DNA of 64,000 nt. Origin: a virus. Each line of letters opens with the position of its first letter. The first letter of the stretch is position 1. This document shows, one piece after another, positions 6,107 through 55,648 of the stretch. A program made the translations under genes and the position numbers. The notes under the pieces are model-generated. The model saw only the letters and a list, made by a program, of their open reading frames with translations, ran no database searches and had not been told where the DNA came from. Location: IMG/VR virus record IMGVR_UViG_3300047095_000752, positions 124,001 through 188,000 of that record; one strand, 5' to 3'.

Positions 6107-6640
6107 TTAGCGGCGAGTTACAGATTTTTGTCTCATATTATTGTTGACCATCGATTTAAGTAAAGCCATATTGAAGAAAGCGCCGGGGCAAGCCATGTCT
6201 TTGAAAAATGAAACCTCGGAGTGGGTTACGATATTCTTTTCCGAAATTCGAAAGGCTTTCATCATAGGGATTATAACTTTGATTGCCATGACATTATATA
6301 ATTTTCGATCTGGTTGATCGGCATTCATATTCCCCATAACGGCTATATGGATCCCTTCTTGGTGCATATCTTCCATGTCGAGGAAGGGGGCTTTAGTGAG
6401 GAGTGGTGCACAAACTATCGGATGAAACTCGTCTCCAACTTTTTCTATAACGAAATTGTATGGTAAATACATTCGATCTAATTCGTAAATTGTCTTAGCC
6501 AGTTTATTTACTTGAAATGATGGACGATCAAATACAACTGCCGCATCCGTAGGCTTAAGATCTTCTGTATGATGGATTATGATCCAATTTGGCCAAGATC
6601 TCGCATATTTATACATGTCTTGTTTTAATGACATTGCCAT
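6107..6640 (-). CDS. N-acetylmuramoyl-L-alanine amidase-like peptidoglycan hydrolase
   Basis: 177 aa from the ATG that overlaps the spike gene stop (TAATG) behind GGGAGAA; a 16-codon upstream extension is rejected because it lies inside the spike gene. The fold is the amidase-2/PGRP type: WIIIHHTED with a zinc-ligand histidine near residue 23, YNFVIEK, GIHIAVMGN in the middle, and THSEV ... ACPG near residues 139-152 giving the second histidine and the cysteine ligand. It would cleave the bond between N-acetylmuramate and L-alanine. No signal peptide. Coupling to the baseplate spike suggests either a tail-associated hydrolase or the endolysin used with the holin/spanin genes near 52-54 kb. 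Confidence 0.85.
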   Translation of the reverse strand: MAMSLKQDMYKYARSWPNWIIIHHTEDLKPTDAAVVFDRPSFQVNKLAKTIYELDRMYLPYNFVIEKVGDEFHPIVCAPLLTKAPFLDMEDMHQEGIHIAVMGNMNADQPDRKLYNVMAIKVIIPMMKAFRISEKNIVTHSEVSFFKDMACPGAFFNMALLKSMVNNNMRQKSVTRR

Positions 6641-7578
6641 TATCGTTCTCCCGCTGGTTTCGCTGCTTGTGCTGCCTTTGCTGGGCAACTTAGTGGGGTC
6701 TGGATGAATGAACTCTGCCCCTTGATTAATACTTTACCGCCAGTTTTGATCCCGGCTGCTTGCTTTCCTTCAATAAATACAGATGCGGAACTGGATTTCA
6801 TATTCATGGATCCTTTTGACTCAAGTGCAGCCAACCCATCTGTTTTTATATCGACTCCACCTTTAGCTTTAACTTGGAATTTACCTTCCGTCTCAAACAT
6901 TATGTCGCCTTTAAATTTACATTCTAATGTTTGTTTTTCTATATCAAAATTAATATAATCGCCCTTATGTGTTTTTATAATTAATTTTTCACTACCTTCG
7001 CGCTCGTCGATTAGGATTACAGTCTGGTTTCCATCAACCTCGTACACAGATGCCGCGTTACCTGAAGGTCCTTCTGAGTCGTCCAGCTTTCTCTTCTTAC
7101 CTGTTATCTCTACTCTCTGTTGATCCGGGGAGTCGCAAACTACAACGGATCTACCCATCCCAGATGTAATTACAGTATAAACTTTATGGGGTTCGTCTAC
7201 ATTTCGGTTAACTGCAGGTAGTGGAACCGCTTTCTCTTGCCAAGGACCTAAATAGAAGGCTCTTTCCATGTCACTATCTTCAAATTGGACTCTCACATAT
7301 GAATTCAATAATGGGATAAAAACATTAGCTGCAGCAAAGTGTGAGGAACTTTCAGGGTCGTCTTCATTGTAGCCGCCCAGTCCCATATTTGAAGGATATG
7401 CTAAAATACCATCTTTGAATTCGTCCAGTTCTTCGTGGATTTCCTTGGACATTAATTCTGGTATGTAAACTCTAACAGCGCCGTATTTATTCTTTTCCCC
7501 GTCATCATCTACATCGACTTCCGTAACGCGGGCGCGGTAGATCTTATCATACTTCTTTTCTTGCTTGGCTGGAGGCAT
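6640..7578 (-). CDS. Baseplate hub spike protein, gp5/VgrG-like
   Basis: 312 aa. The N-terminal ~130 residues form an OB-fold-like domain (YRARVTEVDVDDDGEKNKYGAVRVYIPE ... VFIPLLNSYVRVQFEDSD, here given in two pieces, then FYLGPW), as in T4 gp5 and VgrG. The remainder is a repetitive beta stretch (KLIIKTHKGDYINFD, GDIMFETEGKFQVKAKGG, MNMKSSSASVFIEG) that should wind into a trimeric beta-helix needle. Unlike T4 gp5 it carries no internal lysozyme domain; a separate amidase follows in an overlapping frame. It punctures the outer membrane during tail contraction. Confidence 0.88.
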   Translation of the reverse strand: MPPAKQEKKYDKIYRARVTEVDVDDDGEKNKYGAVRVYIPELMSKEIHEELDEFKDGILAYPSNMGLGGYNEDDPESSSHFAAANVFIPLLNSYVRVQFEDSDMERAFYLGPWQEKAVPLPAVNRNVDEPHKVYTVITSGMGRSVVVCDSPDQQRVEITGKKRKLDDSEGPSGNAASVYEVDGNQTVILIDEREGSEKLIIKTHKGDYINFDIEKQTLECKFKGDIMFETEGKFQVKAKGGVDIKTDGLAALESKGSMNMKSSSASVFIEGKQAAGIKTGGKVLIKGQSSFIQTPLSCPAKAAQAAKPAGER

Positions 7579-7587
7579 TTTATATCC

Positions 7588-7962
7588 TTAATCGTCTTCA
7601 TGTTTTTGAGCAGCTATAACTCTATTTTGTGCAACTTGAATATTTCTTAAATATCCAAAACATACTCTACGTTCGTCAGGATCCATTATATCATCACAGC
7701 CGTGCTTGATCCATCTCTTACGCTTAACCTTATCTACAAGCTCTCTAGCAAGCATCCCACCCCCTGCAATAGCCGCTCCCATGGCAGCATACTTAATCCC
7801 AGTATTTAATTTACTTGAAACTTCTCTTGTAGCTTCTTTTGGATCTAAGTACCCAGCTTCCGCTAAATATTTATATTCTGCTACAGTTAAATTAGACATG
7901 GCTTCTTGGATTAAAGCATCTAATCTTTCTTGTAGTTTCAATAATCTTTGTATGTCATTCAT
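7588..7962 (-). CDS. Putative prohead-targeted cargo protein, MN-type leader, CX11C
   Basis: 124 aa. Leader MNDIQRLLKLQERLDALIQ continuing to LTVAEYKYLAEAG is homologous to those of six other genes in this operon and resembles a capsid-targeting sequence with a possible cleavage after YLAE. Then a Gly/Ala-rich helix (YAAMGAAIAGGGMLA, residues ~57-72), a basic segment WIKHG and a Cys pair CDDIMDPDERRVC with the DP-x-x-R signature. The 76-aa protein at 18766 and the two at 55.2-56.0 kb share this Cys module. Role inferred, not known: a virion-packaged, ejected, membrane-active protein. Confidence 0.85.
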   Translation of the reverse strand: MNDIQRLLKLQERLDALIQEAMSNLTVAEYKYLAEAGYLDPKEATREVSSKLNTGIKYAAMGAAIAGGGMLARELVDKVKRKRWIKHGCDDIMDPDERRVCFGYLRNIQVAQNRVIAAQKHEDD

Positions 7963-7977
7963 AATACAATTTCCTTA

Positions 7978-8247
7978 CTATCTTTTTAATAATGGAGGTC
8001 CGGTTGGTAACTGATTTTTAAGTCTTTGTTGATGTCTTTCTTCTACTGCTTTTTGTTTCTTTTCAATCTCTTTTTCAAATTGATATATAATTTGTTTACG
8101 TCTTAAATCTCTATCTCGAATAGCTTTACGTGTAGCAGCAATTGAAGCACCCGCCATAAGACCAGCACCAATTCCCGCTGCAGCTTTAAGTCCGGCTTTA
8201 ACTCCGGATTCAATTAATTTATTTTTAGCATTAGTTAAAATACTCAT
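7978..8247 (-). CDS. Putative prohead-targeted cargo protein, MSIL-type leader
   Basis: 89 aa. Leader MSILTNAKNKLIE, with a potential prohead-protease site after LIE, then a Gly/Ala helix (AGIGAGLMAGASIAATRKA) and a long, highly charged helix (YQFEKEIEKKQKAVEERHQQR) that could be a coiled coil. No Cys pair. Architecture as in the neighbours; function unknown. Confidence 0.8.
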   Translation of the reverse strand: MSILTNAKNKLIESGVKAGLKAAAGIGAGLMAGASIAATRKAIRDRDLRRKQIIYQFEKEIEKKQKAVEERHQQRLKNQLPTGPPLLKR

Positions 8248-8251
8248 TTAA

Positions 8252-8668
8252 TTAACCCTTATTCAGATATGAATCGACCATATCCTTACCACGATTTGCT
8301 AAGCCTTTAGCACGGTCGACCACATCTTGTGTAAAGGTTGTCTTTCTTGTACTCTTCATCCAGTTTATACACTGTTTATATTCCGGTGTATTTCTTCCAT
8401 ATTTTCTATGGCATGTATTGTATATACCGCTTAGGTCGGCATTTCGATTCATTAACTTTGTATCTTGTCTATCATCATACCTCCCCTTAGCCCACCCACC
8501 AGCCATTAAAGTAGGTACGACGGCTGCAGTGCCCTTCCAGAATTTTTTAGTTTTTGCTAAATCTATACCAGATCTGACCAGTTGTCCGGCGTGTCTACCA
8601 ATAGTTCCGGCTAGACCTTCATTTAAAAATTCTTCTAAATTTTTATTCGAATTATTTAAAATACTCAT
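8252..8668 (-). CDS. Putative prohead-targeted cargo protein, MSIL-type leader, CX13C
   Basis: 138 aa. Leader MSILNNSNKNLEEFLNE followed by GLAG: a textbook LxE-like site. Hydrophobic segment GTAAVVPTLMAGGWA near residue 50, then CHRKYGRNTPEYKQC, closely similar to the Cys modules of the genes at 9230 and 9622. Basic C-terminus. Between near-identical-type paralogs with 4-20 bp spacers. Confidence 0.85.
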   Translation of the reverse strand: MSILNNSNKNLEEFLNEGLAGTIGRHAGQLVRSGIDLAKTKKFWKGTAAVVPTLMAGGWAKGRYDDRQDTKLMNRNADLSGIYNTCHRKYGRNTPEYKQCINWMKSTRKTTFTQDVVDRAKGLANRGKDMVDSYLNKG

Positions 8669-8688
8669 ATTATCAATACCTTTATTTA

Positions 8689-9216
8689 TTACTTATTGTC
8701 ATAATACATAAAAGAGCTATCACTACCTAACGCAGCCGCCCCTACATTTAGAGCGCCATTTATAGTGGCTAATCTAGCGAACTTTTTTAGTTGTTGATTT
8801 CTGTACTGTCTCTTCGCTTCTTCCTTCTCTGCTTTCAGTCTTGCTAATTCTTTATCCTTAGCACCATTTCGGATTTTATCTTCAACTCTGTCGATCTTTC
8901 TCTTTAAATCTCCAGATCCTTTTTGAACATAGGCGGCGGCAACACATCGGTTATATGATCTAGTTCCCTTTTCACCAACTGCTAAACAGTCAATAATTGG
9001 ATTTCTAATTTTTCCATCTTTACCACCGGCTTTGTTTAGGCGCATTTTATCACCAATTTTATTTCTAGCTACATTACCAGCACCAAGTCCGGTAATGACA
9101 CCTGCTGTAAGTGCTTTATTATTTTTAACTGCGTTTAAAGCCGTACCAATTGATTTACTTAATACACTTTCTTTTAACAATTGTAGTTCATGATTAGATT
9201 TATTCAAAATGCTCAT
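8689..9216 (-). CDS. Putative prohead-targeted cargo protein, MSIL-type leader, CX13C
   Basis: 175 aa. Leader MSILNKSNHELQLLKE, potential cleavage after LLKE. Small-residue helix ALTAGVITGLGAGNVA, Cys pair CLAVGEKGTRSYNRC, then a long charged helical region (KRKIDRVEDKIRNGAKDKE ... KEEAKRQYRN) likely to be a coiled coil, and a second hydrophobic stretch LATINGALNVGAAALG near the C-terminus. This is one of the few members with two candidate membrane segments. Confidence 0.85.
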   Translation of the reverse strand: MSILNKSNHELQLLKESVLSKSIGTALNAVKNNKALTAGVITGLGAGNVARNKIGDKMRLNKAGGKDGKIRNPIIDCLAVGEKGTRSYNRCVAAAYVQKGSGDLKRKIDRVEDKIRNGAKDKELARLKAEKEEAKRQYRNQQLKKFARLATINGALNVGAAALGSDSSFMYYDNK

Positions 9217-9229
9217 AATATAGATCCCT

Positions 9230-9622
9230 TTATTTTTCGATTAAATTATTTATTTTTGATTTCAACTGATCTTTATACGCCAGACTTTTATTATAAGCAA
9301 ATCTACCTCGATCTGTTACGTCATTTGCGATATTGTATTTTGGGTTCAGTTTAAATTTATCAACACACGATTTGTACTTTGGTGTACCAGATCCATATCT
9401 ATTGGAACATGCTGTGTATATACCATTTGACTTAGCGTCCTTATTTAGTTTTCTTGTTTTTCGGGTTAAAATATGATTTGCAAGGATAGCGTCGATAGAT
9501 ATAGCTGATGCTAAATTTTTTCGTCTGTATTTATAGAAGGTTGCTGCGGCTTTTCTAGCCATAGATCCTTTAGATTCATAAAAGAAATTTAATTTTTTTA
9601 TAGATTCAGTTAAAATACTCAT
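9230..9622 (-). CDS. Putative prohead-targeted cargo protein, MSIL-type leader, CX13C
   Basis: 130 aa. Leader MSILTESIKKLNFFYE then SKGS. Basic region, hydrophobic stretch NLASAISIDAILANHIL, then CSNRYGSGTPKYKSC followed by DRGRFAYNKSLAYKDQLK. Start ATG overlaps the preceding stop as TAATG. Same Cys module as at 8252 (GTPKYKSC versus NTPEYKQC), so recent duplication within the operon is likely. Confidence 0.85.
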   Translation of the reverse strand: MSILTESIKKLNFFYESKGSMARKAAATFYKYRRKNLASAISIDAILANHILTRKTRKLNKDAKSNGIYTACSNRYGSGTPKYKSCVDKFKLNPKYNIANDVTDRGRFAYNKSLAYKDQLKSKINNLIEK

Positions 9623-10425
9623 TAGTCTAAACTCGGTTTATATAGCTTTTCATTTATTTTATCGCCTATTTTGTCTTTAAGGCTTCGTGCTCGATTTGCA
9701 ATTGAATTTGGATCTATACCATATCTCTTATTTAATTTATCGACACATTTTGAATGTGATTTGCTTCCATCTTTATACACTTTAGAGCAAGCTACTTTTG
9801 GGTCTTTACCGCCAAATCTTACTGTTAATGAGTTCATAGCCGCATTTGAGGCAAGACCTGCACCGGCAGCCCCACCCGTGAACACTGCTGTATCTCTTAA
9901 TTCCTTTATACCTCGATTGTTCTTATATTTTTTGGCAGCATTTATATGTTTATTGAATTGAATGTCATCCATGGTACCTCGGAGTCCATCTCTCAGACTA
10001 CCTATGTCTTTGTCTACTAAATCACGAAACGCCTGACGATCTGTCTTATTTTTAGGATCTAATTTTTTTAACTTTTCTATTTTTCCGATGGCCATGTCGC
10101 GGTCATATTTCATATCAAAATTTTTGACTTGTTCTGGGATTTTAGCTTTTCTTGAAACAACATTATAAAAATTAATTTTATTATTATATCGGCGAGAGGC
10201 ACGACTGGCACGCTTAACTTTTGCAGCATCTATTGCGACTTTATTAAATTTGGAGGAAAGAAAGCTATTAATTCTATTCTTGGCTCGGTTTAGAGTCAGA
10301 GGTTTTTTATTCTTCTTTACTATATTCCCTGCTGCCTTAGCTGCGTCAATAACATCAGTATAATCTACATCAACTAGGTTCGCCAATTGCTTACCTACAG
10401 CCGTTTTAAAAGTTTCATTAATCAT
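9622..10425 (-). CDS. Cargo-family protein with CX13C module, 267 aa
   Basis: The leader (MINETFKTAVGKQLANLVDV) is shorter and diverged, without a clear LxE site. The body is very basic (KNKKPLTLNRAKNRI, KRASRASRRYNNK), which may bind DNA. A Gly/Ala helix (TAVFTGGAAGAGLASNAAM) precedes CSKVYKDGSKSHSKC and a tail (YGIDPNSIANRARSLKDKI) like that of the neighbouring gene. Larger than its paralogs; could be an internal DNA-associated virion protein. Confidence 0.8.
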   Translation of the reverse strand: MINETFKTAVGKQLANLVDVDYTDVIDAAKAAGNIVKKNKKPLTLNRAKNRINSFLSSKFNKVAIDAAKVKRASRASRRYNNKINFYNVVSRKAKIPEQVKNFDMKYDRDMAIGKIEKLKKLDPKNKTDRQAFRDLVDKDIGSLRDGLRGTMDDIQFNKHINAAKKYKNNRGIKELRDTAVFTGGAAGAGLASNAAMNSLTVRFGGKDPKVACSKVYKDGSKSHSKCVDKLNKRYGIDPNSIANRARSLKDKIGDKINEKLYKPSLD

Positions 10426-10481
10426 TTTATTTTCCTTTTAGTAATTATATTCTATGATAAGATATATATTAATATTTAAGT

Positions 10482-11129
10482 CTACTGTATTCCTAATCTT
10501 TCTTTAAGCTTTTGTAGTCTGGTCTTCGGCGCTGGCTTTGGTTGGAGAGCACGATTTACGGCATATCCACCACCAGCGGCGGCTGCACCACCGGCTGCTA
10601 TACCAGCACCAATCTTAGCTTGTCTACGCGCTTGTGCTACGGCGGACTGTGATGCTGTAAGTGCGGGAGCGGCTTCGTCGGCAGCTTTTAAAGATAGAGC
10701 GGATCGTGCGTCTCTGGACTTATTTTTCCAATTACGTTTTGCCCACGGTCCAACTACTTCAGCATAAGTATTGGCACCACTGGCTTCACGTGAAGCCTTT
10801 TTAATATCTTTAAGCCTCATACCACCCGGCTTGGTACCGAATTGTTTTATCTTTTCACCTTTTTCAATTGCCGCCTTTAGGGTACTTTGATTCTTTTTAT
10901 CACCCATCACATTAACGCCGAATCGTCTTACAGCCTGTCCGGCGCGAGTACCAACAGCAGCCTTACCAAGTCCTACTATAGTATCATATCCGGTTTTAAA
11001 CTTATTTTCAGTTAAAATACCAGCTTCATGTAACTGTACAAATTCACTTACGGTCAATTCGTTCGTGGCTTCTTCAATTAAACTTGCTAACTGTTCTCTC
11101 ATTTCTAACATTTCTAATAATTCGTTCAT
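10482..11129 (-). CDS. Putative prohead-targeted cargo protein, MN-type leader
   Basis: 215 aa. Leader MNELLEMLEMREQLASLIEE followed by LTVSEFVQLHEAGILTE; two candidate LxE-like sites (QLHE, ILTE). Basic middle, then an extreme Gly/Ala run (AKIGAGIAAGGAAAAGGGYA) near the C-terminus that is long enough to cross a membrane, and a basic tail. No Cys pair. One of seven MN-type paralogs. Confidence 0.85.
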   Translation of the reverse strand: MNELLEMLEMREQLASLIEEATNELTVSEFVQLHEAGILTENKFKTGYDTIVGLGKAAVGTRAGQAVRRFGVNVMGDKKNQSTLKAAIEKGEKIKQFGTKPGGMRLKDIKKASREASGANTYAEVVGPWAKRNWKNKSRDARSALSLKAADEAAPALTASQSAVAQARRQAKIGAGIAAGGAAAAGGGYAVNRALQPKPAPKTRLQKLKERLGIQ

Positions 11130-11134
11130 TTTAT

Positions 11135-12010
11135 TTAACCTTTCTTAGCATTTTGTAATGCGATAAATACCATCTTCTCGTAAAGACCTTTATTGATCTT
11201 TCTAAAGAATGATGAAAAAACGGAACTACCCGACACTGATGATGCGACCAATGTTGCAAATAATCTCGATCCATCTTCATAAGCTGGTAGACTTGATAAC
11301 CCAGAGCTATTAATAATAGTCTGTGAAAATAAATTTTCGGAAATAGGAATAATATTATTTTTTCTAAGTGCTGTTAAAAATCCAATCATAGATGATAAAT
11401 CAAAATTCAAATTCAATTCTGATGCTGATTGTGCATAATATCTATTTGCAAGTTTATTTATAACACCTTGATTTATATCTCCGCCCATAATACCAGAATG
11501 AACATACAATCCAATTAACACTTGTAGGTTAGGAATCAAATATTTATACGAGCCTTGAAGACCATGTTTCTTAGAATAAAATTTCATGAATGCGGATATG
11601 TAGAAATTTGCGATATGAATGTCAATATCTTTTTCGAATGGCTTACGTTTAATATAAGATTGTAAAGTTATAGCGTAAAGGAACATGGAATAAATATCAG
11701 GAGAACTATAATCAGATACATACTGACTAGGTAATACAGATAGATTTACAACAGGTATAAAGTCACGAGTTACAAAGCCGGGTAGAGGATATTCGGGCAT
11801 TCTAACTACAAGGCATTTATCCATATTTTCGATCACATATGAACCACCACCATGTGCTCTAGCATAACCTTTGGTTAATACTTTAATATGGTGGTTATCA
11901 TCAGCATCTACTTCGAATGCCTTGATTGTATTAGCGGCTACCGGTGATATGTTATATACTTGGTGTCCACTTTTATCTTTGATTAATTCAAAAGATTCTT
12001 TAATTCTCAT
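11135..12010 (-). CDS. Probable virion protein, 291 aa
   Basis: Not recognised. Starts MRIKESFELIKDKSG; the KE followed by S could be a very short processing site but this is weak. Mixed alpha/beta protein with a Ser-rich C-terminal part (ATLVASSVSGSSVFSSFF). It lies 5 bp downstream in the transcript from the 163-aa cargo gene's region and is translated together with the cargo genes, so a structural or internal virion role is likely. Confidence 0.75.
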   Translation of the reverse strand: MRIKESFELIKDKSGHQVYNISPVAANTIKAFEVDADDNHHIKVLTKGYARAHGGGSYVIENMDKCLVVRMPEYPLPGFVTRDFIPVVNLSVLPSQYVSDYSSPDIYSMFLYAITLQSYIKRKPFEKDIDIHIANFYISAFMKFYSKKHGLQGSYKYLIPNLQVLIGLYVHSGIMGGDINQGVINKLANRYYAQSASELNLNFDLSSMIGFLTALRKNNIIPISENLFSQTIINSSGLSSLPAYEDGSRLFATLVASSVSGSSVFSSFFRKINKGLYEKMVFIALQNAKKG

Positions 12011-12070
12011 TTTATATGTTCCTTAGATCAAATTAATTCATAATAGAATTTTATAATATTACTAAATTAT

Positions 12071-12562
12071 TTATTCCCAATAGTCATCGGGAACGTTCTT
12101 TTTTGGTACTCTTCTCGACATGTGTCTATTTATATCATCTTGAAAACTACTGTATATATCCAACTTCTTTCGGGTGCTTCTGGGTTTCGTACTACGGGCA
12201 CCGTGTATCATATTATCATCAAGATTTTTATGAATTAGTCCTTGAATTTTTTCTTTTCTTAGATGTGCTGGTGTAGATCTTAATTCATCTTTCATATCTC
12301 TAAATTTATTGGCGGACATTCCCCACCGTTTATATGTTTTTACTACATCCTCAGCTTGCTCTTCCGGTGTCGTAAAGAAATTCGCAGCCAAACGCCGACT
12401 CGTCGCTTGAGGGGTACGTTTTAGCTGTTCCCGGTTTGAGGACTTTGCAAATTTAATAAGATCTGATGGCGTTCCAGATTTTGATGCCTTCTTTAAAATC
12501 TTTTTTAATATACCTTCTTTAAATAATTGAAGGGTATTTTCGGATTCTGTTAATATACTCAT
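12071..12562 (-). CDS. Putative prohead-targeted cargo protein, MSIL-type leader
   Basis: 163 aa. Leader MSILTESENTLQLFKE then GILKK, nearly superposable on the leader at 9230. The rest is basic and polar (FFTTPEEQAEDVVKTYKRWG, then DELRSTPAHLRKEKI), without a membrane helix or Cys pair, which makes it the exception among MSIL-type proteins and a candidate soluble effector if it is ejected. Confidence 0.8.
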   Translation of the reverse strand: MSILTESENTLQLFKEGILKKILKKASKSGTPSDLIKFAKSSNREQLKRTPQATSRRLAANFFTTPEEQAEDVVKTYKRWGMSANKFRDMKDELRSTPAHLRKEKIQGLIHKNLDDNMIHGARSTKPRSTRKKLDIYSSFQDDINRHMSRRVPKKNVPDDYWE

Positions 12563-12566
12563 TATA

Positions 12567-13220
12567 CTATCCTTTAGATGTAATAGATTTAATCTTAGCT
12601 TTAATTCTGTTAATTGGCTTTGCAGCTTCTGCGGCTTTAGCCATCATTTGTTGGTTGCGTTCATTACGATTTTGATTGGACTTCTTAACGCCAGCCCCTA
12701 CAACTGTACCACCAACTGCTGTCGCTCCCGCGTGTGTAGCTAATGTTTTTCTAGATTGATTTACATTCTTTTTAATTCTACGTAGTTTACCGGCCGCGAT
12801 ATATTTATCGGCTTCAGGTCCGGACATCTGAGAAAAATGTTTAGTTTCACTCTGGTCAATACCAGCAGCCTTCATGCTACGATCTGCTTTAGCGATTTTA
12901 CGCTTCAACTGGGCTTGCTTGAGTTTATCTCCACCCATTACATTTTTTGCGAATTTGGTGGTGACTCTTTTTGTATCTTTACCAAACCCAATAGCTTTTT
13001 GACCTGTCTTTGAGGCGGCAACTTTTTGACCAAAACTAGAACCAGCAATACGCTTGCTTAATTTTGATAAAGCTCCAATACCATTCTTAATATTAAGTTC
13101 GTTTAGTACACCACTTTCGGTTAACATTTGAACTTCATTCATAGTAAGATTATCAACGGATTCTTCAATCAATTGATCTAATTTCTTCTTCATTTCTAAC
13201 ATTTCTAATAAGTCGTTCAT
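12567..13220 (-). CDS. Putative prohead-targeted cargo protein, MN-type leader
   Basis: 217 aa. Leader MNDLLEMLEMKKKLDQLIEE, then LTMNEVQMLTESGVLNE (two candidate sites, MLTE and VLNE). The region SKTGQKAIGFGKDTKRVTTK and NVMGGDKLKQAQLKRKI aligns with the gene at 10482 (NVMGDKKNQSTLKAAI), showing homology beyond the leader. Gly/Ala helix HAGATAVGGTVVGAGV near residue 170. Very basic. Confidence 0.85.
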   Translation of the reverse strand: MNDLLEMLEMKKKLDQLIEESVDNLTMNEVQMLTESGVLNELNIKNGIGALSKLSKRIAGSSFGQKVAASKTGQKAIGFGKDTKRVTTKFAKNVMGGDKLKQAQLKRKIAKADRSMKAAGIDQSETKHFSQMSGPEADKYIAAGKLRRIKKNVNQSRKTLATHAGATAVGGTVVGAGVKKSNQNRNERNQQMMAKAAEAAKPINRIKAKIKSITSKG

Positions 13221-13265
13221 AGTATAAATTCTCCTTGTTATTTATTATATATTTGTCGAAACTTT

Positions 13266-13367: not shown

Positions 13368-13427
13368 GTTTTTTATCCTTTTTGGGTTGGGTTTGGTTGA
13401 GTTTAAGTGAGTATTTTATATTTAATC

Positions 13428-14099: not shown

Positions 14100-14438
14100 T
14101 TAATATTTGCCGCGCCGGGTCGATGGAGATGATAACGTATCACCTTTCGGTCCAGCCCACAAATCTTTACAAGCCCAATATGCGGCAGAAAATCTATCTT
14201 TCTGCTGATCACATTTATGTCTTGCTCTAAATGACTTTCTTGCTACGTCACTGTAGTTGTGACCATATCCCGTAGCGCCATAATGAATTAACTTCTCACG
14301 ACCACCTTCACAGACCTTGACCATTTTCTTCTTACCGGGTCTGGTTGAATTCATTGGTTTATTACAGGGCATTTTACTTTTATCGCTATTTTCTTTTAAT
14401 ATTGATTCTAAAAATAATTTACAGTCGCGTATTAACAT
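14100..14438 (-). CDS. Conserved virion protein with capsid-type leader, 112 aa
   Basis: Leader MLIRDCKLFLE then SILKEN gives two LxE-like sites. The body (KMVKVCEGGREKLIHYGATG, SFRARHKCD, DRFSAAYWACKDLWAG) belongs to a small basic family seen in many large phages and some eukaryotic viruses, marked by F-R-A-R-H-x-C and S-A-x-Y-W-x-C-K. Two conserved cysteines there may bind metal. The function of that family is not established; presence of a cleavable leader here suggests packaging inside the capsid. Confidence 0.8.
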   Translation of the reverse strand: MLIRDCKLFLESILKENSDKSKMPCNKPMNSTRPGKKKMVKVCEGGREKLIHYGATGYGHNYSDVARKSFRARHKCDQQKDRFSAAYWACKDLWAGPKGDTLSSPSTRRGKY

Positions 14439-14449: not shown

Positions 14450-15325
14450 TTACACCGAAGGTATTCCATCAGCGATTCGGTATGTGATTGATACCGGATA
14501 AGTTATTGTAAGTCTAGATCCAACCCTGAGTTGTGTCGCCATATTTGATAGTAATGATGAATTTTCAGAATTTGCTATAATATCAGATGTCTTCCAACTA
14601 ATTCTTTGATGCTTAGCTTGACTATTATAAACTAAAGTATAGTCGTAATTGTATTTTTGTTGAATTGAGAAATTATTAAGTTTAATTGATATACCAGACG
14701 GATTTGAAGGTTCTCTTAGTAAGTCTACGTATTTATTGGCTAGATCGGTAGATGTTAATATTTTAATTTCAGTCTTCTCGGTATTGTATATCCCGAGTAT
14801 CTGGGGTTGACCGAATCCTAACAATTGTTTCTCAGCGTCCAGTCTTTCCATTTCCATTTTATCTAATGGGTATTTTTTATAATATTGATTTATTTTAGTA
14901 TCTGATAATACAGTTTCTTTTAGTGGGATTATATTTTTATCAACTTGTCTATCACTAAATAATTGAAATATTGATGTATACGGCGGCACTAAAATAGTTT
15001 CAAAATCAACAAAATCTTCTCTCGAACTAACATTGTTGACATATAAGATTAAAGGCCAATATATGGTAGTATTATAATAATCAAAACTAACATAGTCTGG
15101 TCTCATATACCAACGTGAACGAAACGCAACTTCTTCACTTGAGTTTAGTAAGATGAAGAAGTTGCGATCAAAAGTTAATATATCAAAAGCTGGGAATTTA
15201 ACTTCAATATTGTTTTCAGTATCAACATCTATATATCTATTTCTAAAATTATCAATATCTGTTGCTAATTTTGAATTTCTAGATGCTTCTGTTCTAATTG
15301 AAGATTCTATTGGTTTAAGGGACAT
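14450..15325 (-). CDS. Baseplate wedge protein, gp53-like
   Basis: 291 aa. Residues ~45-110 carry FPAFDILTFDRNFFILLNS, then RPDYVSFDYYNTTIYWPL and ILYVNNVSSREDFVDF; this RPD-x-(I/V)-S-x-x-x-Y-x-x-x-x-Y-x-x-L-I-L-x-x-N-N pattern is that of T4 gp53-type wedge subunits. The C-terminus (RVGSRLTITYPVSITYRI) is beta-rich. Placed among internal virion genes and upstream of the spike in the same transcript, consistent with a baseplate role. Moderately sure of the family. Confidence 0.6.
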   Translation of the reverse strand: MSLKPIESSIRTEASRNSKLATDIDNFRNRYIDVDTENNIEVKFPAFDILTFDRNFFILLNSSEEVAFRSRWYMRPDYVSFDYYNTTIYWPLILYVNNVSSREDFVDFETILVPPYTSIFQLFSDRQVDKNIIPLKETVLSDTKINQYYKKYPLDKMEMERLDAEKQLLGFGQPQILGIYNTEKTEIKILTSTDLANKYVDLLREPSNPSGISIKLNNFSIQQKYNYDYTLVYNSQAKHQRISWKTSDIIANSENSSLLSNMATQLRVGSRLTITYPVSITYRIADGIPSV

Positions 15326-15356
15326 TATACGTTACCTTATATATTATACTTCCTTA

Positions 15357-15671
15357 TTATACGTTGGAAATTTTTGACTTACAATAATTAAGCATTTTAG
15401 GATCATTCTTGTATCTAAAATTGCACAACGCCAATTTACCTTTATTTACTATACTTGATATCCCCGTAGGTTGTACATTTAACATTTTTGTAGTTTTAAC
15501 CGGAGTTGCTTTTGGGTTGTATGGCATTTTTGTATATTTTGGAGTTGCTTCGCCTCGTTTACCTAACATATTAGTTATAAAGGATTCTGATAAACCTAAT
15601 TTATTTATTTTCTTGTTTATTAGATTGTCTAATTCTTGCTTAGCTTCTAATAATTCTAATATATCATTCAT
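15357..15671 (-). CDS. Putative prohead-targeted cargo protein, MN-type leader, CX13C
   Basis: 104 aa, the smallest MN-type member. Leader MNDILELLEAKQELDNLINK with LGLSE then SF as the candidate site. A proline/lysine-rich linker (YTKMPYNPKATPVKTTK) leads to CNFRYKNDPKMLNYC at the very C-terminus. It lacks the Gly/Ala helix. Confidence 0.8.
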   Translation of the reverse strand: MNDILELLEAKQELDNLINKKINKLGLSESFITNMLGKRGEATPKYTKMPYNPKATPVKTTKMLNVQPTGISSIVNKGKLALCNFRYKNDPKMLNYCKSKISNV

Positions 15672-15691
15672 TTATAGGATCCTTTAAGTTT

Positions 15692-16234
15692 CTAACTATA
15701 TATAATATCATCGACTTTAGTTTTGATTTTTTCTCTAATTTTTTGTAGTTCTGGTTTATTTGCTTCAGCTTTTGCGGCGGCAGAATCTCTTCTTTTATTT
15801 TGAATTGATTTTCCTGCAATGGCTGCGGGCACGGAAGATGTACCGATTACCTTGGCTGCTCGTTCGAGTCCAATATCTTTACGAACCGCTTTTTTATTCC
15901 AATTTAACATAGCACGCATATAATCTAGATTTTTCATCCCCTCAAACCCCTCTTCGGGATCTAAGTCTATTCCATACCCATCTAAAGTTTTGACTCTTTT
16001 ATTTAATTTTTGAGCTAATTCAGCGGGTTTTGGTTTTAGAAATCCGGTTGAAACTCCAATTTTACGAATTAATTTTTTAGTATTAATTATATTATCTTTA
16101 GTTATCTTAATTTCGGTTAAAATACCATTTTCTTGTAAATAATTAAATTCGTTTACCGTAAGATCCCGAACAGCTTCTTGAATTAATTCATCGAGTTTTT
16201 CTTTGGTTTGCAACATTTCTAATAGATCATTCAT
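15692..16234 (-). CDS. Putative prohead-targeted cargo protein, MN-type leader
   Basis: 180 aa. Leader MNDLLEMLQTKEKLDELIQE and LTVNEFNYLQENGILTE, with sites YLQE and ILTE. Downstream RKIGVSTGFLKPKPAELAQ aligns with RRVGTATGILKMTPAERVQ in the gene at 16316, so these two are sister genes. Small hydrophobic patch GTSSVPAAIAG. Basic C-terminus. Confidence 0.85.
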   Translation of the reverse strand: MNDLLEMLQTKEKLDELIQEAVRDLTVNEFNYLQENGILTEIKITKDNIINTKKLIRKIGVSTGFLKPKPAELAQKLNKRVKTLDGYGIDLDPEEGFEGMKNLDYMRAMLNWNKKAVRKDIGLERAAKVIGTSSVPAAIAGKSIQNKRRDSAAAKAEANKPELQKIREKIKTKVDDIIYS

Positions 16235-16315
16235 ATTATAGTCCTTTAAATTCTAAACTAAAGTGTATGATAACACATTTTATAAATATTAGTTACGTTA
16301 AAGTTTTTTATGAAA

Positions 16316-16909
16316 TTACATTCTATCTTTTACAATATCTTTTAGCTTGGTTAATTTTCCGGCTTTTGCGGCAGCATAAAGTTTTTGAGCGCATGCCTTT
16401 ACTTCTTCAGGCTTTGAATATCTAGATTTACACGCAGTTACAGCATTACCGGTTTCTTTGTACACAGATAGCATACTACGATTTTTAACCTTATTGTTTG
16501 CGAATTGACCGGTCTTATACGCGGCGGTACCAGCCGCTGCAGTAGTTGCTAGTCTAACGGGGCGTTCAGTTGCTTTAACTATGCCCTTCTGATTTTTATA
16601 TGCATTTCTAAACATATCTTTCATTACGGCAGGCGCAATTACCTTTCCGAGTGCGTCCTTTTGTGAACGCGCCGCCTGTTTAGCGACTCTATTTACCATT
16701 TGAACTCGTTCTGCTGGAGTCATTTTTAAAATTCCAGTTGCAGTCCCAACACGCCGTAAAATTTTTGATAAAGGTTTCGTCGCAGCTTCATTCAGTACGC
16801 CAGATTCTTGAAGTGTCTGGAATTCACCTACAGTAAGTTCACCTACAGCTTCTTGGATCAGATTGTCAAGATCCTGCTGCATCTCTAAAAGTTCGATTAA
16901 TTCATTCAT
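16316..16909 (-). CDS. Putative prohead-targeted cargo protein, MN-type leader, CX12C
   Basis: 197 aa. Leader MNELIELLEMQQDLDNLIQE, LTVGEFQTLQESGVLNE (sites TLQE, VLNE). Basic middle, Ala-rich helix LATTAAAGTAAYKTG, then CKSRYSKPEEVKAC followed by QKLYAAAKAGK. The Cys module matches that of the gene at 19003 (CKQSYNSPEDIKKC, then QNRLYAKYK), although their leaders belong to different classes: modules have been shuffled. Confidence 0.85.
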   Translation of the reverse strand: MNELIELLEMQQDLDNLIQEAVGELTVGEFQTLQESGVLNEAATKPLSKILRRVGTATGILKMTPAERVQMVNRVAKQAARSQKDALGKVIAPAVMKDMFRNAYKNQKGIVKATERPVRLATTAAAGTAAYKTGQFANNKVKNRSMLSVYKETGNAVTACKSRYSKPEEVKACAQKLYAAAKAGKLTKLKDIVKDRM

Positions 16910-16978
16910 TGTAATATCCTTTCAATGTTATTAGAATTAAATGGTTTACGTAAAATTCTTTACATATATTTGTCCGGT

Positions 16979-17515
16979 TTACCCTATATATCTATTAGCT
17001 TTATCTTTGGCTTTATCAAATATAGATTTATTTTTTAAAATCTCAGCTTCTTTTTTCTTTTTCAATTGATCGTGCTTAAGTTTACCATAAACTCCAAGAG
17101 TCACACCAACCCCAGCCGTTGTATAAGGGCGAGCTTTCATATTCTTGGGTAAATCTTTTATATTTTTCTTACCAGTTTTAATAGAATCTATAACTTCAGC
17201 TTTAATATCACCTTTAAATTTAGCTATATCAGCGGCATCTTTACCTTTTAATAAGGTATGTCTTTTGTCAATAGCATCATCAATGGCGTTAATAACAAAT
17301 CGGGTGGCTTTAGTTCCGGTCTGTAATACCTTCTTAGATACATTTCGGTTCGCGGATTTAGCATATGTACCGGCGAGCTTAAGTCCGGTCATTCCAAACT
17401 TAGCTAAATTTTCATTTAATATATTGAATTCATTGACAGTTAAATTGTTGATATGATTCTCGATTAACATATCAACTTCTTGTTTTGCTTCTAATAATTC
17501 TAATAAGTTATTCAT
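16979..17515 (-). CDS. Putative prohead-targeted cargo protein, MN-type leader
   Basis: 178 aa from the ATG of MNNLLELLEAKQEVDMLIE; a ten-codon upstream extension is rejected because it lies in the HNH gene and AAAAGGAT favours this start. Leader ends LTVNEFNILNEN (site ILNE). Helix PYTTAGVGVTLGVYG near residue 140, then a charged tail. No Cys pair. Preceded in the transcript by an HNH gene. Confidence 0.85.
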   Translation of the reverse strand: MNNLLELLEAKQEVDMLIENHINNLTVNEFNILNENLAKFGMTGLKLAGTYAKSANRNVSKKVLQTGTKATRFVINAIDDAIDKRHTLLKGKDAADIAKFKGDIKAEVIDSIKTGKKNIKDLPKNMKARPYTTAGVGVTLGVYGKLKHDQLKKKKEAEILKNKSIFDKAKDKANRYIG

Positions 17516-17531
17516 TATGTTATAATCCTTT

Positions 17532-18062
17532 TTATATATGGACATGTTTCCATGATTTATTTAATATTATATTTGATATACTTCTTGTATTTACATTAAA
17601 CATTTTTGAAAGATCAGACTGATTAAAAATTTGGTTTTTACCGTAAAATCTAATTTTCTTAACTTGTATTTCAGTTAATTTAGATCTGGCGTTATTTTCA
17701 CCTTTACTTGTTCTTAATTCATTGTCATATGCGTGTTGTATATTTTCGCTTCTAGTGCACCACTCTAAATTGTCTATATGGTTATTTTCTTTATTACCAT
17801 CTATATGATTAACTTCATCATAATAACTTTTCACATCCAATTTAAATGTAAGCATTACTAGTCGGTGATTTGTATATGATTTTCCTTTTTTATTTTTACT
17901 TAAATCTACTTGATGATATCCGTATCGATTTTTAAATGATTTCAGTATAAGTTCTCTATTTCTTTGAAAACTTTTAACTCTACCTAAATTGCTTATTTGG
18001 TAAAGCCCTTCATATTCTGGTATATCTTTCCAAACTTCTGTAGTCAATGTAACTAACTCCAT
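17532..18062 (-). CDS. NUMOD4/HNH homing endonuclease
   Basis: 176 aa. N-terminal NUMOD4 motif (WKDIPEYEGLYQISNLGRVK), HNH-3 core (YYDEVNHIDGNKENNHIDNL then EWCTRSENIQHA), and a C-terminal helix-turn-helix (QSDLSKMFNVNTRSISNII). This is the I-HmuI-like freestanding type, a different lineage from the zinc-ribbon HNH genes of the window. It sits flush (no gap) after the 231-aa gene in the late operon. Confidence 0.9.
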   Translation of the reverse strand: MELVTLTTEVWKDIPEYEGLYQISNLGRVKSFQRNRELILKSFKNRYGYHQVDLSKNKKGKSYTNHRLVMLTFKLDVKSYYDEVNHIDGNKENNHIDNLEWCTRSENIQHAYDNELRTSKGENNARSKLTEIQVKKIRFYGKNQIFNQSDLSKMFNVNTRSISNIILNKSWKHVHI

Positions 18063-18758
18063 TTACAGTTCAGGTTTATCCGAACCTTCTTTTTTCCAAC
18101 TGTATTTAAATTTATCATAACCGCAGTTAGACCAGTTGATCTTTAGCTTTTCCAATATAGGATCCAAATCGTCCGCTTCTAAATAATGACCATATGTTTG
18201 AACGAAGTATCCCATATCACCTTGACATAATTCAATGGGTAAGTTAATTGCCGCATTGTGGTACATCTCGTGGATCGACTTCAGCAGAACAATAAAGGGA
18301 ACTCTCATCTTATAGTGCATTTCCATCACTTCATCGATGATATCAATTGAAGAGAATTCTTTCTTACTTATGACGTGTTTCATTATAACCGCTTTAACTA
18401 TAACGTACAATGCGGCAGGGTGGTGGTGGATATCGCTCTTAGCGTTAACGTGACTCTCCCCCGTGATCTGGCATTCCGTCATTTCCATCACATTACGAAT
18501 GTAGTCCGTCCACTCCCCATACTCCGGGCACATCCGGATCATACTTTCACATTTCTTTATAAACTTATTTAATTCTTTATCGTCTGAAATTTCATCCCGT
18601 TTATATCTTAATGTATATTCGGAATTCTCGGAATGAAGTTTATTATTATCTTCGTCATAAGTTACGATATTAACTTCCGTTTTAACGGTGGATGCTTCTT
18701 CGAATAATGAATTTATCCGAGCATCAATATCATCGTCTGCTACAGCCATGAAACCCAT
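18063..18758 (-). CDS. HNH-like/zinc-site protein of unknown role, 231 aa
   Basis: Residues ~75-120 contain CPEYGEWTDYIRN, CQITGESHVNAK and DIHHHPAALYVIV, a C ... C-x-x-T-G ... H-H-H-P layout reminiscent of HNH nucleases. It has no leader and no homing-type flanks, and it is embedded between virion genes, so a packaged or morphogenetic nuclease-like protein is possible; I do not recognise a characterised family. Alpha-helical C-terminal half (HEMYHNAAINLPIELC). Start chosen for AAAAGGTAGG at good spacing. Confidence 0.75.
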   Translation of the reverse strand: MGFMAVADDDIDARINSLFEEASTVKTEVNIVTYDEDNNKLHSENSEYTLRYKRDEISDDKELNKFIKKCESMIRMCPEYGEWTDYIRNVMEMTECQITGESHVNAKSDIHHHPAALYVIVKAVIMKHVISKKEFSSIDIIDEVMEMHYKMRVPFIVLLKSIHEMYHNAAINLPIELCQGDMGYFVQTYGHYLEADDLDPILEKLKINWSNCGYDKFKYSWKKEGSDKPEL

Positions 18759-18765
18759 CTGATAC

Positions 18766-18996
18766 CTACCTTTTCTTCTTTCTTAACTTTTCTTTCATTT
18801 TGTACATATACATGTCGCATTTAAAGCGTTCATTTGGATCGTCGATGCTAGTACAACCATTCTTAATCCAACCGGCTCTCTTCTTACTACGAGTGAGATA
18901 TTCAATACCACCAATAGCAGATATAGTGGCAAGACCAATACTAACTAGGGCTTGATCGCTAATTTCTTTTAAAAATTGTTTATGTAAATAATTCAT
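18766..18996 (-). CDS. Putative prohead-targeted cargo protein, MNY-type leader, CX11C
   Basis: 76 aa, a minimal version of the design: leader MNYLHKQFLKE (site FLKE), hydrophobic helix ALVSIGLATISAIGGIEYL, then WIKNG and CTSIDDPNERFKC, and a basic tail (KMKEKLRKKKR). The W-I-K-[HN]-G-C ... DP-x-E-R-x-x-C module is shared with the gene at 7588. Confidence 0.85.
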   Translation of the reverse strand: MNYLHKQFLKEISDQALVSIGLATISAIGGIEYLTRSKKRAGWIKNGCTSIDDPNERFKCDMYMYKMKEKLRKKKR

Positions 18997-19002
18997 AATT
19001 CG

Positions 19003-19788
19003 TTATCCAGTAATCGAATCGATTGTTTGTCTTATCTTAGAAGTCTTATACTTAGCATATAATCTATTTTGACACTTTTTAATGTCTTCTGGTGAATTAT
19101 ATGATTGTTTACATGCCTTTACAGCATTTTGTAGTTTCTCATATGTGTATTCACTTTGTTTCGTCTTTAGTGCTTTGTTTGCGGTGATTGCCGTAGCTCC
19201 GGCACCGGTTGCTAATCCACCACTAACAACATTGTCAATCATATCAATTTTTCGTAATTTCTTTGCACGTTCGGCTGCGGTGCCACGTAAATTATTAAGC
19301 TTATCACCTACACCCTTTGTAGATGTATTAAAATTATTTACAATCGTATCCATACCTGCCTGACGGCGTTTTAATAGATCTTCTGCGTCTTTAGCCTTAC
19401 TTAATATGGCAGCTTCGGTCTCTTTCCACTTGGCTTTTTGCTGAGCGGATGCATTAGGCTTGCGAGCAGGGGACTTTGCCCATCTACGTTCAAGTTCGTC
19501 TTGTACGGCTTTAATATCCTGTTGTGGACCTACGCTGCGCTTCTGAATAGCGTCGAGTGCGCTTTCAACCTTAGCTTTTTTAGCAACTTGAGTTTTACGA
19601 ATACCAATAGAGGGCTTGAGTAAATCACCATATCTATCTTTAAGTTTAGTAAAGTCGATGTGTCCCTTTTTCATAGATGCTAGTTTATTTGGTACGTATC
19701 TTATTACTTTACCTAAATTTTCTAATGTCTTAGATTTAGCACCCTCTTCGAGGATAGCTTCAATTAACGCTTTGTGTTGGTAATTCAT
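19003..19788 (-). CDS. Putative prohead-targeted cargo protein, MNY-type leader, CX12C
   Basis: 261 aa. Leader MNYQHKALIEAILEE then GAK. A long charged helical body (residues ~60-160, with ESALDAIQKRSV, QQKAKWKETEAAILSK) suggests coiled coil. Then NVVSGGLATGAGATAITA and CKQSYNSPEDIKKC with QNRLYAKYK. Possibly a longer ejected protein spanning the periplasm. Confidence 0.85.
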   Translation of the reverse strand: MNYQHKALIEAILEEGAKSKTLENLGKVIRYVPNKLASMKKGHIDFTKLKDRYGDLLKPSIGIRKTQVAKKAKVESALDAIQKRSVGPQQDIKAVQDELERRWAKSPARKPNASAQQKAKWKETEAAILSKAKDAEDLLKRRQAGMDTIVNNFNTSTKGVGDKLNNLRGTAAERAKKLRKIDMIDNVVSGGLATGAGATAITANKALKTKQSEYTYEKLQNAVKACKQSYNSPEDIKKCQNRLYAKYKTSKIRQTIDSITG

Positions 19789-19791
19789 ATC

Positions 19792-21276
19792 TTAAGACCT
19801 CGTTAATAAATCGTTAACTTTATGATATACGGATGCATAATTACTAGATTCGACAACCGCAGATCTGATATTTGACTGCTTAGCGGCAGTTTCTTTAGAC
19901 CACGCACTTGCACGTGAGGCTTCACTGTAATCCAGTACGTCTTTAAGATTTAATACCTTCTTAAGATAATCAAATGGAATTTCTTGACAGTGATTTAAAC
20001 GAGGAGTACAAAAATAAGCAGACTCTTTAGTTTCATTTGTAATAACTAAATCACCAAAAACATATTTTGTAAGCTTACGATAGTTATTGACGATATCCAT
20101 TAAAGCTTCGTTACGATCTAAGTCATAAGAAGATAAAATAATCATTGTGCTCCAAGAGCTTGAATCTTTACTTGTGAACTTCTTGGCGAGAGTTGTGGTA
20201 TTTGTAAGTTCGTCTCTGGTTGGTGAAAACATGATTGCTTCAGAGGCTTCATTTGGATCGATGTAATCACCTTTATTAATAGCTCTGCGCTTAGTAAACC
20301 AAATTTTAGTATTAACTTTACGGAAAGCATTTTTAAATTGACGTTCAAACCAATTCATATTTTTGGCTTCATTTAGAAGTTTAATAATAGAAGTAACATC
20401 ATCAATAATATAAGGTACGCACTTGACCCCTACTCTTATCATCTTTTGTTCGGAGTTTTCAATACCACTATAAAGAGGAATTTCAAGGATCGTAGGTTCT
20501 AATGAAATTTGATTGAAGAATTGAATACCAGTAGGTTGTTCAACTGAATCTAAACTTCCAAATGAACTTGGCCTGTGTGTATCTAACTCAGCGGAGTGGG
20601 CGCGACGACCCTTTTTAATAGCAGTTTTACGATCTTTGAGTTCAGCAGATATCTTCTTGGTAGTAACATCGCTCTGTCGAGCAGCGCCGAAGTTCTTTGC
20701 TATATTTGATTTATCTAGTCTACTCAGAGCTTCCGTGGCATCTTTATTAGCTTTACTACCGGCGGGTGCATTGATTCCCGCTATTATTTGTGCGGGGGTT
20801 ATACCAAGCGTATGTAGTTGGGGTGCGATGCCAGATACGATTTTAGCAGACTGTGCCTGTGTTCTTGGGTCTAAATTTGGGTGTGACATTTTTGGGTTAT
20901 TTGGATCTTTACCCTGAGACACTGAAGAGTGATATCTGAATAAATTTTTCAAATCTTCCACATCTTCGGAACTGTTATTGGACCACATATCTTCTTTGTC
21001 AGCACCATTCGCTTCGCTTATAAATCTACCAATATTACACATTGAAGAAATTTGTTCGTTGATTACACTATCAGAAATAATAGTTACGGGAATATCAACG
21101 CCCTCTTTATTTACAGACCAAGAACCGATACGACTGTATTTCTTCATGGCTGCATTTTTGAACAAGGCGGCGTTGTTTAAAAGAATGTTTCTTTCAATAA
21201 GTTTTGAAAGTGCGGGAATTAGTTTCTCGTTCACTTGAGGTGAAACCATCGCAGGTACTATGAATAAAGCTTCCAT
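19792..21276 (-). CDS. Probable virion structural protein, 494 aa
   Basis: Not recognised. Largest gene of the late operon in this window. Begins MEALFIVPAMVSPQVNEKLI. An Ala/Lys-rich, low-complexity middle (residues ~110-240, including RTQAQSAKIVSGIAPQL and KKGRRAHSAE) separates two ordered halves; the C-terminal half has beta-type strands (IPLYSGIENSEQKMIRVGVK). Four bp ahead of a cargo gene. A portal- or tube-associated or head-completion role is possible, but no motif decides it. Confidence 0.75.
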   Translation of the reverse strand: MEALFIVPAMVSPQVNEKLIPALSKLIERNILLNNAALFKNAAMKKYSRIGSWSVNKEGVDIPVTIISDSVINEQISSMCNIGRFISEANGADKEDMWSNNSSEDVEDLKNLFRYHSSVSQGKDPNNPKMSHPNLDPRTQAQSAKIVSGIAPQLHTLGITPAQIIAGINAPAGSKANKDATEALSRLDKSNIAKNFGAARQSDVTTKKISAELKDRKTAIKKGRRAHSAELDTHRPSSFGSLDSVEQPTGIQFFNQISLEPTILEIPLYSGIENSEQKMIRVGVKCVPYIIDDVTSIIKLLNEAKNMNWFERQFKNAFRKVNTKIWFTKRRAINKGDYIDPNEASEAIMFSPTRDELTNTTTLAKKFTSKDSSSWSTMIILSSYDLDRNEALMDIVNNYRKLTKYVFGDLVITNETKESAYFCTPRLNHCQEIPFDYLKKVLNLKDVLDYSEASRASAWSKETAAKQSNIRSAVVESSNYASVYHKVNDLLTRS

Positions 21277-21295
21277 TGTAGATTAATACTCCTAT

Positions 21296-21529
21296 CTAAA
21301 TTATCCAAGGTATATCATCACCCGCATATTTAAATACGAAATCCTTTTCAGTTCTGAATCTGCTAGGTTTCATTTCAGGTTTTGGGGTTAGATCTTCAGT
21401 TATTGTTATTTTATCTTGTTTTGGTGTTGTATTTACAATATTTATGGTTTCTTTTTTTGTTGGAGTTTTTTCACCGTTTAAGTTTATAACATCACCAACA
21501 TCAAAGAATTTTGGGGCTTGTCTAAACAT
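21296..21529 (-). CDS. Hypothetical protein, 77 aa
   Basis: Not recognised. Polar, Thr/Lys/Pro-rich, probably disordered (NTTPKQDKITITEDLTPKP), ending DDIPWII. Its start overlaps the stop of the preceding gene by 1 bp; translationally coupled. Confidence 0.65.
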   Translation of the reverse strand: MFRQAPKFFDVGDVINLNGEKTPTKKETINIVNTTPKQDKITITEDLTPKPEMKPSRFRTEKDFVFKYAGDDIPWII

Positions 21530-22065
21530 TACCCTAAAGCTAGAGTGATTAAATCATTTCTAAATGAACGGTGAGCATTTAGAAGAATTTCGCCATGTTG
21601 ACTTTTAAACAGCTTTTGATCTGCGTTTGAAAGTGCGGTTTCTAACATGAGCATGTCAAGAGCGGTCTCTAAAAAGGTCTTAATTACAACCTTCTTGGCG
21701 ACTTCACGACGGTCCATCTTAGTATTTTCAGATAAGATAGAATCCACTTCGTAGTTGATTTCAGTCAGAACTTCAGCATTCTTGAGTACGTTCTGGGTCT
21801 CAACAAACACATCAAGTCCAAGTTGGTAAGAGTGCTTATTGATCTCAGGTACTCCACCTTTGTATGTATTTTCGGATATATGCTCTGCCATTTTATATAC
21901 TTCATAAAGATTTAATAGCATAGCATTTTTGATCTTTTTATATTGGTTTAGGTTGGTTTCAGACAGGCACGTAGAGGGTCTTGAACCGGGAAATAAAATT
22001 ACATCTATAGCAACAATATTCTCTAACATAGCGATTTTACGCTGCTTGCAAATGGGACAACTCAT
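21529..22065 (-). CDS. Hypothetical protein with N-terminal CPIC, 178 aa
   Basis: Not recognised. Starts MSCPICKQRK, a C-x-x-C knuckle with a further Cys at CLSETN; rest helical (YEVYKMAEHISENTYKG, TFLETALDMLMLETALSN). First gene after a strong terminator with its ribosome site at AAAGGAGA, so it probably opens the virion transcript unit that runs to 6.1 kb. Confidence 0.75.
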   Translation of the reverse strand: MSCPICKQRKIAMLENIVAIDVILFPGSRPSTCLSETNLNQYKKIKNAMLLNLYEVYKMAEHISENTYKGGVPEINKHSYQLGLDVFVETQNVLKNAEVLTEINYEVDSILSENTKMDRREVAKKVVIKTFLETALDMLMLETALSNADQKLFKSQHGEILLNAHRSFRNDLITLALG

Positions 22066-55647: not shown

Positions 55648-55648
55648 T

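Follow-up and report, generated by a model that had tools for sequence, protein, structure and literature searches.

Short-leader proteins predicted to be packaged and cleaved in the head of a jumbo phage

A jumbo phage known from metagenomic DNA alone encodes a set of 20 proteins, most with short N-terminal leaders that, judged from sequence, are probably capsid-targeting propeptides of the T4 style; the cargo behind them would be packaged in the prohead and cleaved there. Ejection of this cargo with the DNA at infection is a reasonable expectation, and action at the recipient envelope by a subset with a helix and a cysteine hairpin is a tentative one. The phage is represented by a 245,225-base linear IMG/VR virus record, of which positions 124001-188000 form the window (64,000 nucleotides). 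Positions refer to the window unless given as record positions, and genes are named by their lower coordinate.

Leader genes interleaved with a tail-gene backbone

The minus-strand operon consists of a tail-gene backbone with 16 small genes interleaved, 15 of which carry short leaders (Table 1). The original prediction counted about 17 leader genes across 6107-22065; they do lie within that span, but 9622-10425 has no convincing leader, and 6107-7578, 11135-12010, 14450-15325, 18063-18758 and 19792-22065 hold amidase-like, baseplate and other conserved genes. The pair at 55240-56008 belongs to the set, as first proposed, and two further genes, at record 89834-90781 (predicted cut VINE/A) and 210298-211170 (VLSE/S), fall beyond the window. 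Together, the 16 operon genes, this pair and the two outside genes form the 20-member set analysed below.

Table 1 Predicted cargo genes and conserved neighbours in the window. A slash marks the predicted cut.
Position	Strand	Assignment	Leader	Predicted cut sites	Body and remarks
6107-6688	minus	conserved neighbour, amidase-like, not cargo
6640-7578	minus	conserved neighbour, baseplate spike-like, not cargo			anchor for finding related loci
7588-7962	minus	predicted cargo	MND	LIQE/A, YLAE/A; last site degenerate	Gly/Ala helix; C-x11-C
7978-8247	minus	predicted cargo	MSIL	KLIE/S	Gly/Ala hydrophobic helix
8252-8668	minus	predicted cargo	MSIL	FLNE/G	C-x13-C; homologous to 9230 (E 4e-14)
8689-9216	minus	predicted cargo	MSIL	LLKE/S	Gly/Ala helix; C-x13-C
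9230-9622	minus	predicted cargo	MSIL	FFYE/S	C-x13-C
9622-10425	minus	cargo-like body	none convincing		Gly/Ala helix; C-x13-C; homologous to 9230 (E 1e-6)
10482-11129	minus	predicted cargo	MND	LIEE/A, QLHE/A, ILTE/N in tandem	Gly/Ala helix
11135-12010	minus	conserved operon gene, not leader gene
12071-12562	minus	predicted cargo	MSIL	LFKE/G
12567-13220	minus	predicted cargo	MND	LIEE/S, MLTE/S, VLNE/L	Gly/Ala helix
14100-14438	minus	predicted cargo	MLIRD type	MLIRDCKLFLESILKE/N	matches part of PHROG 220
14450-15325	minus	conserved neighbour, baseplate wedge-like, not cargo
15357-15671	minus	predicted cargo	MND, truncated	GLSE/S; last MND site lost	C-x13-C
15692-16234	minus	predicted cargo	MND	LIQE/A, YLQE/N, ILTE/I
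16316-16909	minus	predicted cargo	MND	LIQE/A, TLQE/S, VLNE/A	C-x12-C; homologous to 19003
16979-17515	minus	predicted cargo	MND	ILNE/N	start at internal ATG rather than 17545
18063-18758	minus	conserved operon gene, not leader gene
18766-18996	minus	predicted cargo	MNY	FLKE/I	hydrophobic helix; C-x11-C; homologous to 7588
19003-19788	minus	predicted cargo	MNY	ALIE/A, ILEE/G	Gly/Ala helix; C-x12-C
19792-21276	minus	conserved operon gene, not leader gene
55240-55647	plus	predicted cargo		IVNE/F, weak	hydrophobic helix; twin Cys hairpin, C-x11-C...C-x8-C
55649-56008	plus	predicted cargo	MLHHHK	MLHHHKQRISE/S	hydrophobic helix; twin Cys hairpin (C43/C55, C74/C83); modelled

Two other gene groups of the record caught our attention. 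A cysteine-rich family of a dozen or so genes, with a pattern like GxxLLxxxYxNxxxKMxYxCxCGN, occurs in the window at 4054-4809, 5286-6059, 28623-29624, 33424-34404, 48794-49798, 52344-53267 and 54306-55073 and at record positions 50336, 54326, 80427, 93513 and 225339; the three that were compared (record 50336, 54326 and 176344) are clear paralogues, and the family probably represents spreading endonuclease-like genes. Runs of similar-looking proteins of about 100 amino acids, possibly a second large paralogue family, lie at record 20993-23753, 113003-117727, 146173-147316 (window 22173-23316), 202100-203785 and 207635-208562.

Leaders end at a gp21-like motif

The leaders are 11-41 amino acids long and fall into several classes. 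Leave-one-out HMMs run against 331 proteins recovered each of the seven MN(D/E/N) leaders (MND for short: 7588, 10482, 12567, 15357, 15692, 16316 and 16979) when built from its six fellows (E 3e-10 to 3e-20; no outsider scored better than about 0.05), and each of the five MSIL leaders (7978, 8252, 8689, 9230 and 12071) at E 4e-3 to 7e-7, bearing out the two classes at their predicted sizes. The expected trio of MNY or MLHHHK type also held (18766 and 19003 as MNY, 55649 as MLHHHK), and gene 14100 alone begins with MLIRD. MND leaders hold up to three candidate sites and carry a charge of -2 to -10, and the predicted mature cargo is basic (pI 9.0-11.1).

Within residues 8-50, the motif [LIVF]xE[GASN] is found in 17 of 20 members against 5.0 ± 1.9 in shuffles, although membership was itself partly selected by leader, and a more independent test was therefore made with a profile of the C-terminal module (below). 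The 237 other genes of 70-330 amino acids show no excess (34 against 32.6 expected); tallies of non-member genes are approximate throughout because genes came from a simple ORF picker. The proposal that leaders end at LxE before a small residue describes most of the set, with exceptions: the residue after the last site is large in 55240, 18766, 12567 and 15692, gene 7588 has only a degenerate form of that site, and 15357 has lost it. Separately, we rejected Sec signal peptides by inspection, as the leaders are mostly polar or acidic with no hydrophobic core ahead of the site.

Bodies recur behind unrelated leaders

Many bodies combine a Gly/Ala-rich helix with a cysteine pair. C-x11-13-C is present in 13 of 20 members versus 18 of 237 other genes, and a Gly/Ala-rich helix stretch in 12 of 20 versus 3 of 237; because it was the cysteine pattern that led us to the gene at record 89834, the counts free of this bias are 12/19 and 11/19, respectively. 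One body type can stand behind unrelated leaders, and one leader can precede different bodies. Genes 16316 (MND) and 19003 (MNY) have homologous bodies (E 1e-11) and unlike leaders, as do 18766 (MNY) and 7588 (MND; E 4e-7), and the body at record 89834 is homologous to that of 7588 (E 1e-9). The bodies had been described as differing, which is true in part, but many are homologous across leader classes and the helix/cysteine module is common among them. Several tandem paralogues, 10482, 12567 and 15692 among them, are homologous in leader and body alike. Paralogue pairs within the record align poorly near the cut and are uninformative on the boundary.

For 55649, AlphaFold (mean pLDDT 75.9, pTM 0.59, low confidence up to residue 28) predicts helices at residues 23-44, 49-76 and 80-118, with its two cysteine pairs flanking both turns. 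Solved-structure, fold and sequence searches returned no significant relative. With a best 19-residue Kyte-Doolittle mean of 0 to 1.8, the helices are only modestly hydrophobic, and some may be amphipathic instead of membrane-spanning.

For the more independent test, the cysteine-hairpin proteins were made into a profile (A7), which was searched in 18 records and matched in 11. The sixteen further proteins examined matched from profile position 19 onward, with the leader part excluded, and 15 of them carry the cut motif against 4.2 expected; none of 1,000 shuffles reached 15. One of these 15, L126 (G011:91878-92021, minus strand), starts like a conserved baseplate-operon gene (MLSKESKIRVLENFY) and ends in the cysteine-hairpin module, and could reflect either a fusion or a misassigned start. 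Leaving it out gives 14 of 15.

A prohead protease is encoded in the same genome

The original prediction had staked itself on a gp21-like protease elsewhere in the genome, and one is present: a Peptidase_S77 gene (PF03420, E 6.7e-19) at record 240325-241083, which matches the PHROG 207 head maturation protease at E 1.4e-32. It lies two genes past the portal, near two acidic proteins, and three relatives conserve its ELDHP and GxSxRG blocks. Its C-terminal region holds RISE/G, MIFE/S and TITE/N, the same motif as the leaders; such sites would be expected if the enzyme trims its own tail, as the proteases phiKZ gp175 and SPN3US gp245 do (PMC9026906, PMC10052503). Among 18 related and reference records, 11 have a protease match, and of the 12 longer than 180 kb only G004 has none.

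The acidic proteins are candidates for core or scaffold. One, of 296 amino acids, lies upstream of the portal (34% D/E, pI 4.05, fifteen [LIVF]xE[GASND] sites); the other, of 434 amino acids (pI 4.05), lies between portal and protease. A PF07068 search found no major capsid protein in the record, probably a contig-end effect because the record ends inside a fibre-like gene: in relative G007, a probable capsid gene follows a similar long fibre-like gene past the protease. The probable major capsid proteins of G007, G012 and G013 have LLAE or QLAE near residue 60.

Predicted cut sites align between related phages

An alignment search with the spike protein identified a relative of it in at least 36 viral contigs, the majority of which keep the same baseplate neighbours. 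Some leader genes are retained in the baseplate operon of these loci, and sporadic small basic genes have other leaders, such as MIDKYLDHIQE/G and MSKLIDIYLESLNE/G in G013, MKLLNEYLTYLQE/A in G012 and MYISEEY...ELNE/G in G004. For comparison, we hand-picked seven pairs of proteins from different phages that are homologous in body and unlike in leader (lengths 19/32, 28/11, 20/11 and 12/17, for example). An [LIVF]xE site falls in a common alignment column in 6 of these 7 pairs, against 0.6 expected if equally many sites were placed at random, and a strict site does so in 5 of 7 against 0.2, one of the five within the body. Because the pairs were hand-picked, these aligned sites are support and not proof; related sequences can have residues in common for other reasons.

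M48-like peptidases (PF01435, E 1e-22 and 8e-15, one borderline) are found among the relatives' bodies, as is a weak P-loop match. Membrane-anchored M48-like metallopeptidases were seen at L029:248-1048, L055:8867-9964, L039:9185-9958, G004:190150-191061 and G004:204187-205002, some behind leader-like N-termini (HLERIQE/D, YLNQIQE/K). A second leader class of about 48 amino acids, IVxES-LSxxAKxQLLNFIxEAxxxQIKxL, recurs in several relatives (L119, L121, L123, L127, L128, L135 and L136); its homology to the MND leader was considered and is unsupported (hhalign probability 1.5).

More distantly, the jumbo phages AR9/PBS1 (by portal), phiR1-37 and S6 are related and have a conserved baseplate-operon gene in common with this phage. 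Each of phiR1-37, AR9 and S6 has a Peptidase_S77 match, as here; the A7 profile found no cysteine-hairpin module in these three. A DNA-level search of phage records gave no match, nor did tblastn of 50,697 phage records with cargo proteins 16316, 55649 and record 89834. Scans for close relatives with 16316, the spike alone or the portal found nothing, and alignment A2 yielded no sufficiently conserved stretch.

Discussion

The genome combines a short N-terminal leader common to otherwise different proteins, an [LI]-x-E gp21-like motif at the leader's end and a gp21-family protease. With the aligned sites in relatives, these features support the T4-like capsid-targeting reading first proposed. 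T4 has three internal proteins and Alt, with internal-protein leaders of 10-19 amino acids and L/I-x-E sites (PMC9026906); at least ten internal proteins are reported in T-even phages, where Ip1-3 are type IV restriction inhibitors (PMC12373910). As with IPI, IPII, IPIII and Alt, the leaders here precede small basic proteins, and the cargo varies between relatives. Unlike T4, with its three or four genes, this phage has about 20, in several leader classes, some leaders reaching about 41 amino acids with up to three sites, and a hydrophobic helix with a cysteine hairpin is frequent in the bodies, in contrast to the anti-restriction Ip1-3. No T4-like internal-protein or Alt PHROG appeared among cargo matches at E ≤ 0.1.

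A set this large is not exceptional, contrary to the original prediction, since phiKZ and 201phi2-1 process 19 head proteins each (PMC10052503). Our phage resembles these and SPN3US as a jumbo phage with many (here predicted) processed head proteins and redundant sites per propeptide; C-terminal protease processing, known from phiKZ and SPN3US, is likewise predicted here from motif sites. The phiKZ-type hallmarks, an S/A-x-E motif and an often long propeptide, are not seen: those phages use S/A-x-E or A-x-E (PMC10052503, PMC9026906), with SPN3US propeptides at A-x-E and mostly longer than 100 amino acids (PMC10052503), whereas here the motif is [LIVF]-x-E and the leaders are short. In T7 and P22, ejection (pilot) proteins are packaged with DNA and act in the envelope (PMC8954989); unlike the cargo here, they are few and have no common leader. 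The cargo gave no sign of homology to such proteins except in the 14100-14438 body, one domain of which matches a portion of PHROG 220 at E 1e-19, a group named minor head protein and DNA pilot. What is distinctive is that a single genome has several short-leader classes and recombines them with a family of helix/cysteine bodies. We know of no precedent for this leader-body shuffling or for the module among the open-licence papers that our literature search covered.

We propose that the leaders would dock basic cargo to an acidic prohead core during head assembly and that the gp21-family protease would then cut after [LIVF]-x-E, usually ahead of G, A, S or N and often at several sites per leader. 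The mature basic proteins would remain in the head with the DNA and be expelled along with it at infection. Because many bodies have a Gly/Ala-rich hydrophobic helix followed by a cysteine helical hairpin, the recipient's envelope is a plausible place for that subset to act, perhaps as a conduit or in membrane remodelling or exclusion; other bodies, such as the relatives' M48-like metallopeptidases and the weak P-loop match, may act as injected enzymes. Some observations weigh against this reading: the genes lie in a baseplate operon and not beside head genes, several members lack a leader or have a degenerate last site or a large residue after it, no major capsid gene was found in the record, and the [LIVF]xE motif is short.

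A less probable reading, compatible with ours as far as ejection, has the cargo targeted and cleaved alike but retained as inner-body or DNA-organising protein. The strongly basic mature proteins would suit that role, and phiKZ and SPN3US contain large masses of internal protein, with many of their head proteins processed (PMC10052503, PMC9026906), but a hydrophobic helix with a cysteine hairpin would be odd for DNA condensation, as would the M48-peptidase bodies behind leader-like N-termini in relatives. It is improbable that the leaders serve to dock proteins at the baseplate hub or in the tail-tube lumen, with the cargo tail-loaded and possibly uncleaved. The interleaving with spike, wedge and other baseplate genes, partly retained in related loci, invites this idea; set against it, the motif and aligned cut sites match prohead-protease logic, the protease has the same motif, known prohead proteases work in the prohead (PMC9026906), some members sit away from the operon (55 kb in the window, 89.8 and 210 kb in the record), and one body matches a PHROG of minor head and DNA pilot proteins. 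Plain paralogue expansion, with leaders as inherited N-terminal domains that have no role in targeting or cleavage, would account for the tandem paralogues alike in leader and body but is most improbable of all given the same body behind unrelated leaders and the converse, the motif in 15 of 16 further relatives and its lack of enrichment in the rest of the genome.

Returning to packaging and ejection, we offer as speculation, for this uncultured jumbo-phage clade, a modular tag-and-cargo system in which each phage's own leaders, matched to its own core, are recombined with a pool of bodies and mainly deliver disulfide-stapled hairpins. Membrane-inserting hairpins and some enzymes (M48 peptidases) would then enter the host envelope at infection, where they might build a conduit for the DNA or enclose the arriving genome in an early membrane compartment.

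These results predict, from sequence, a large head-loaded protein set of a jumbo phage together with its candidate cut sites, giving a route by which injected phage proteins may be sought across uncultured jumbo phages. They also offer leaders that may serve as portable packaging tags, together with a helix/cysteine-hairpin protein family that is new and can be tested for its part in infection.
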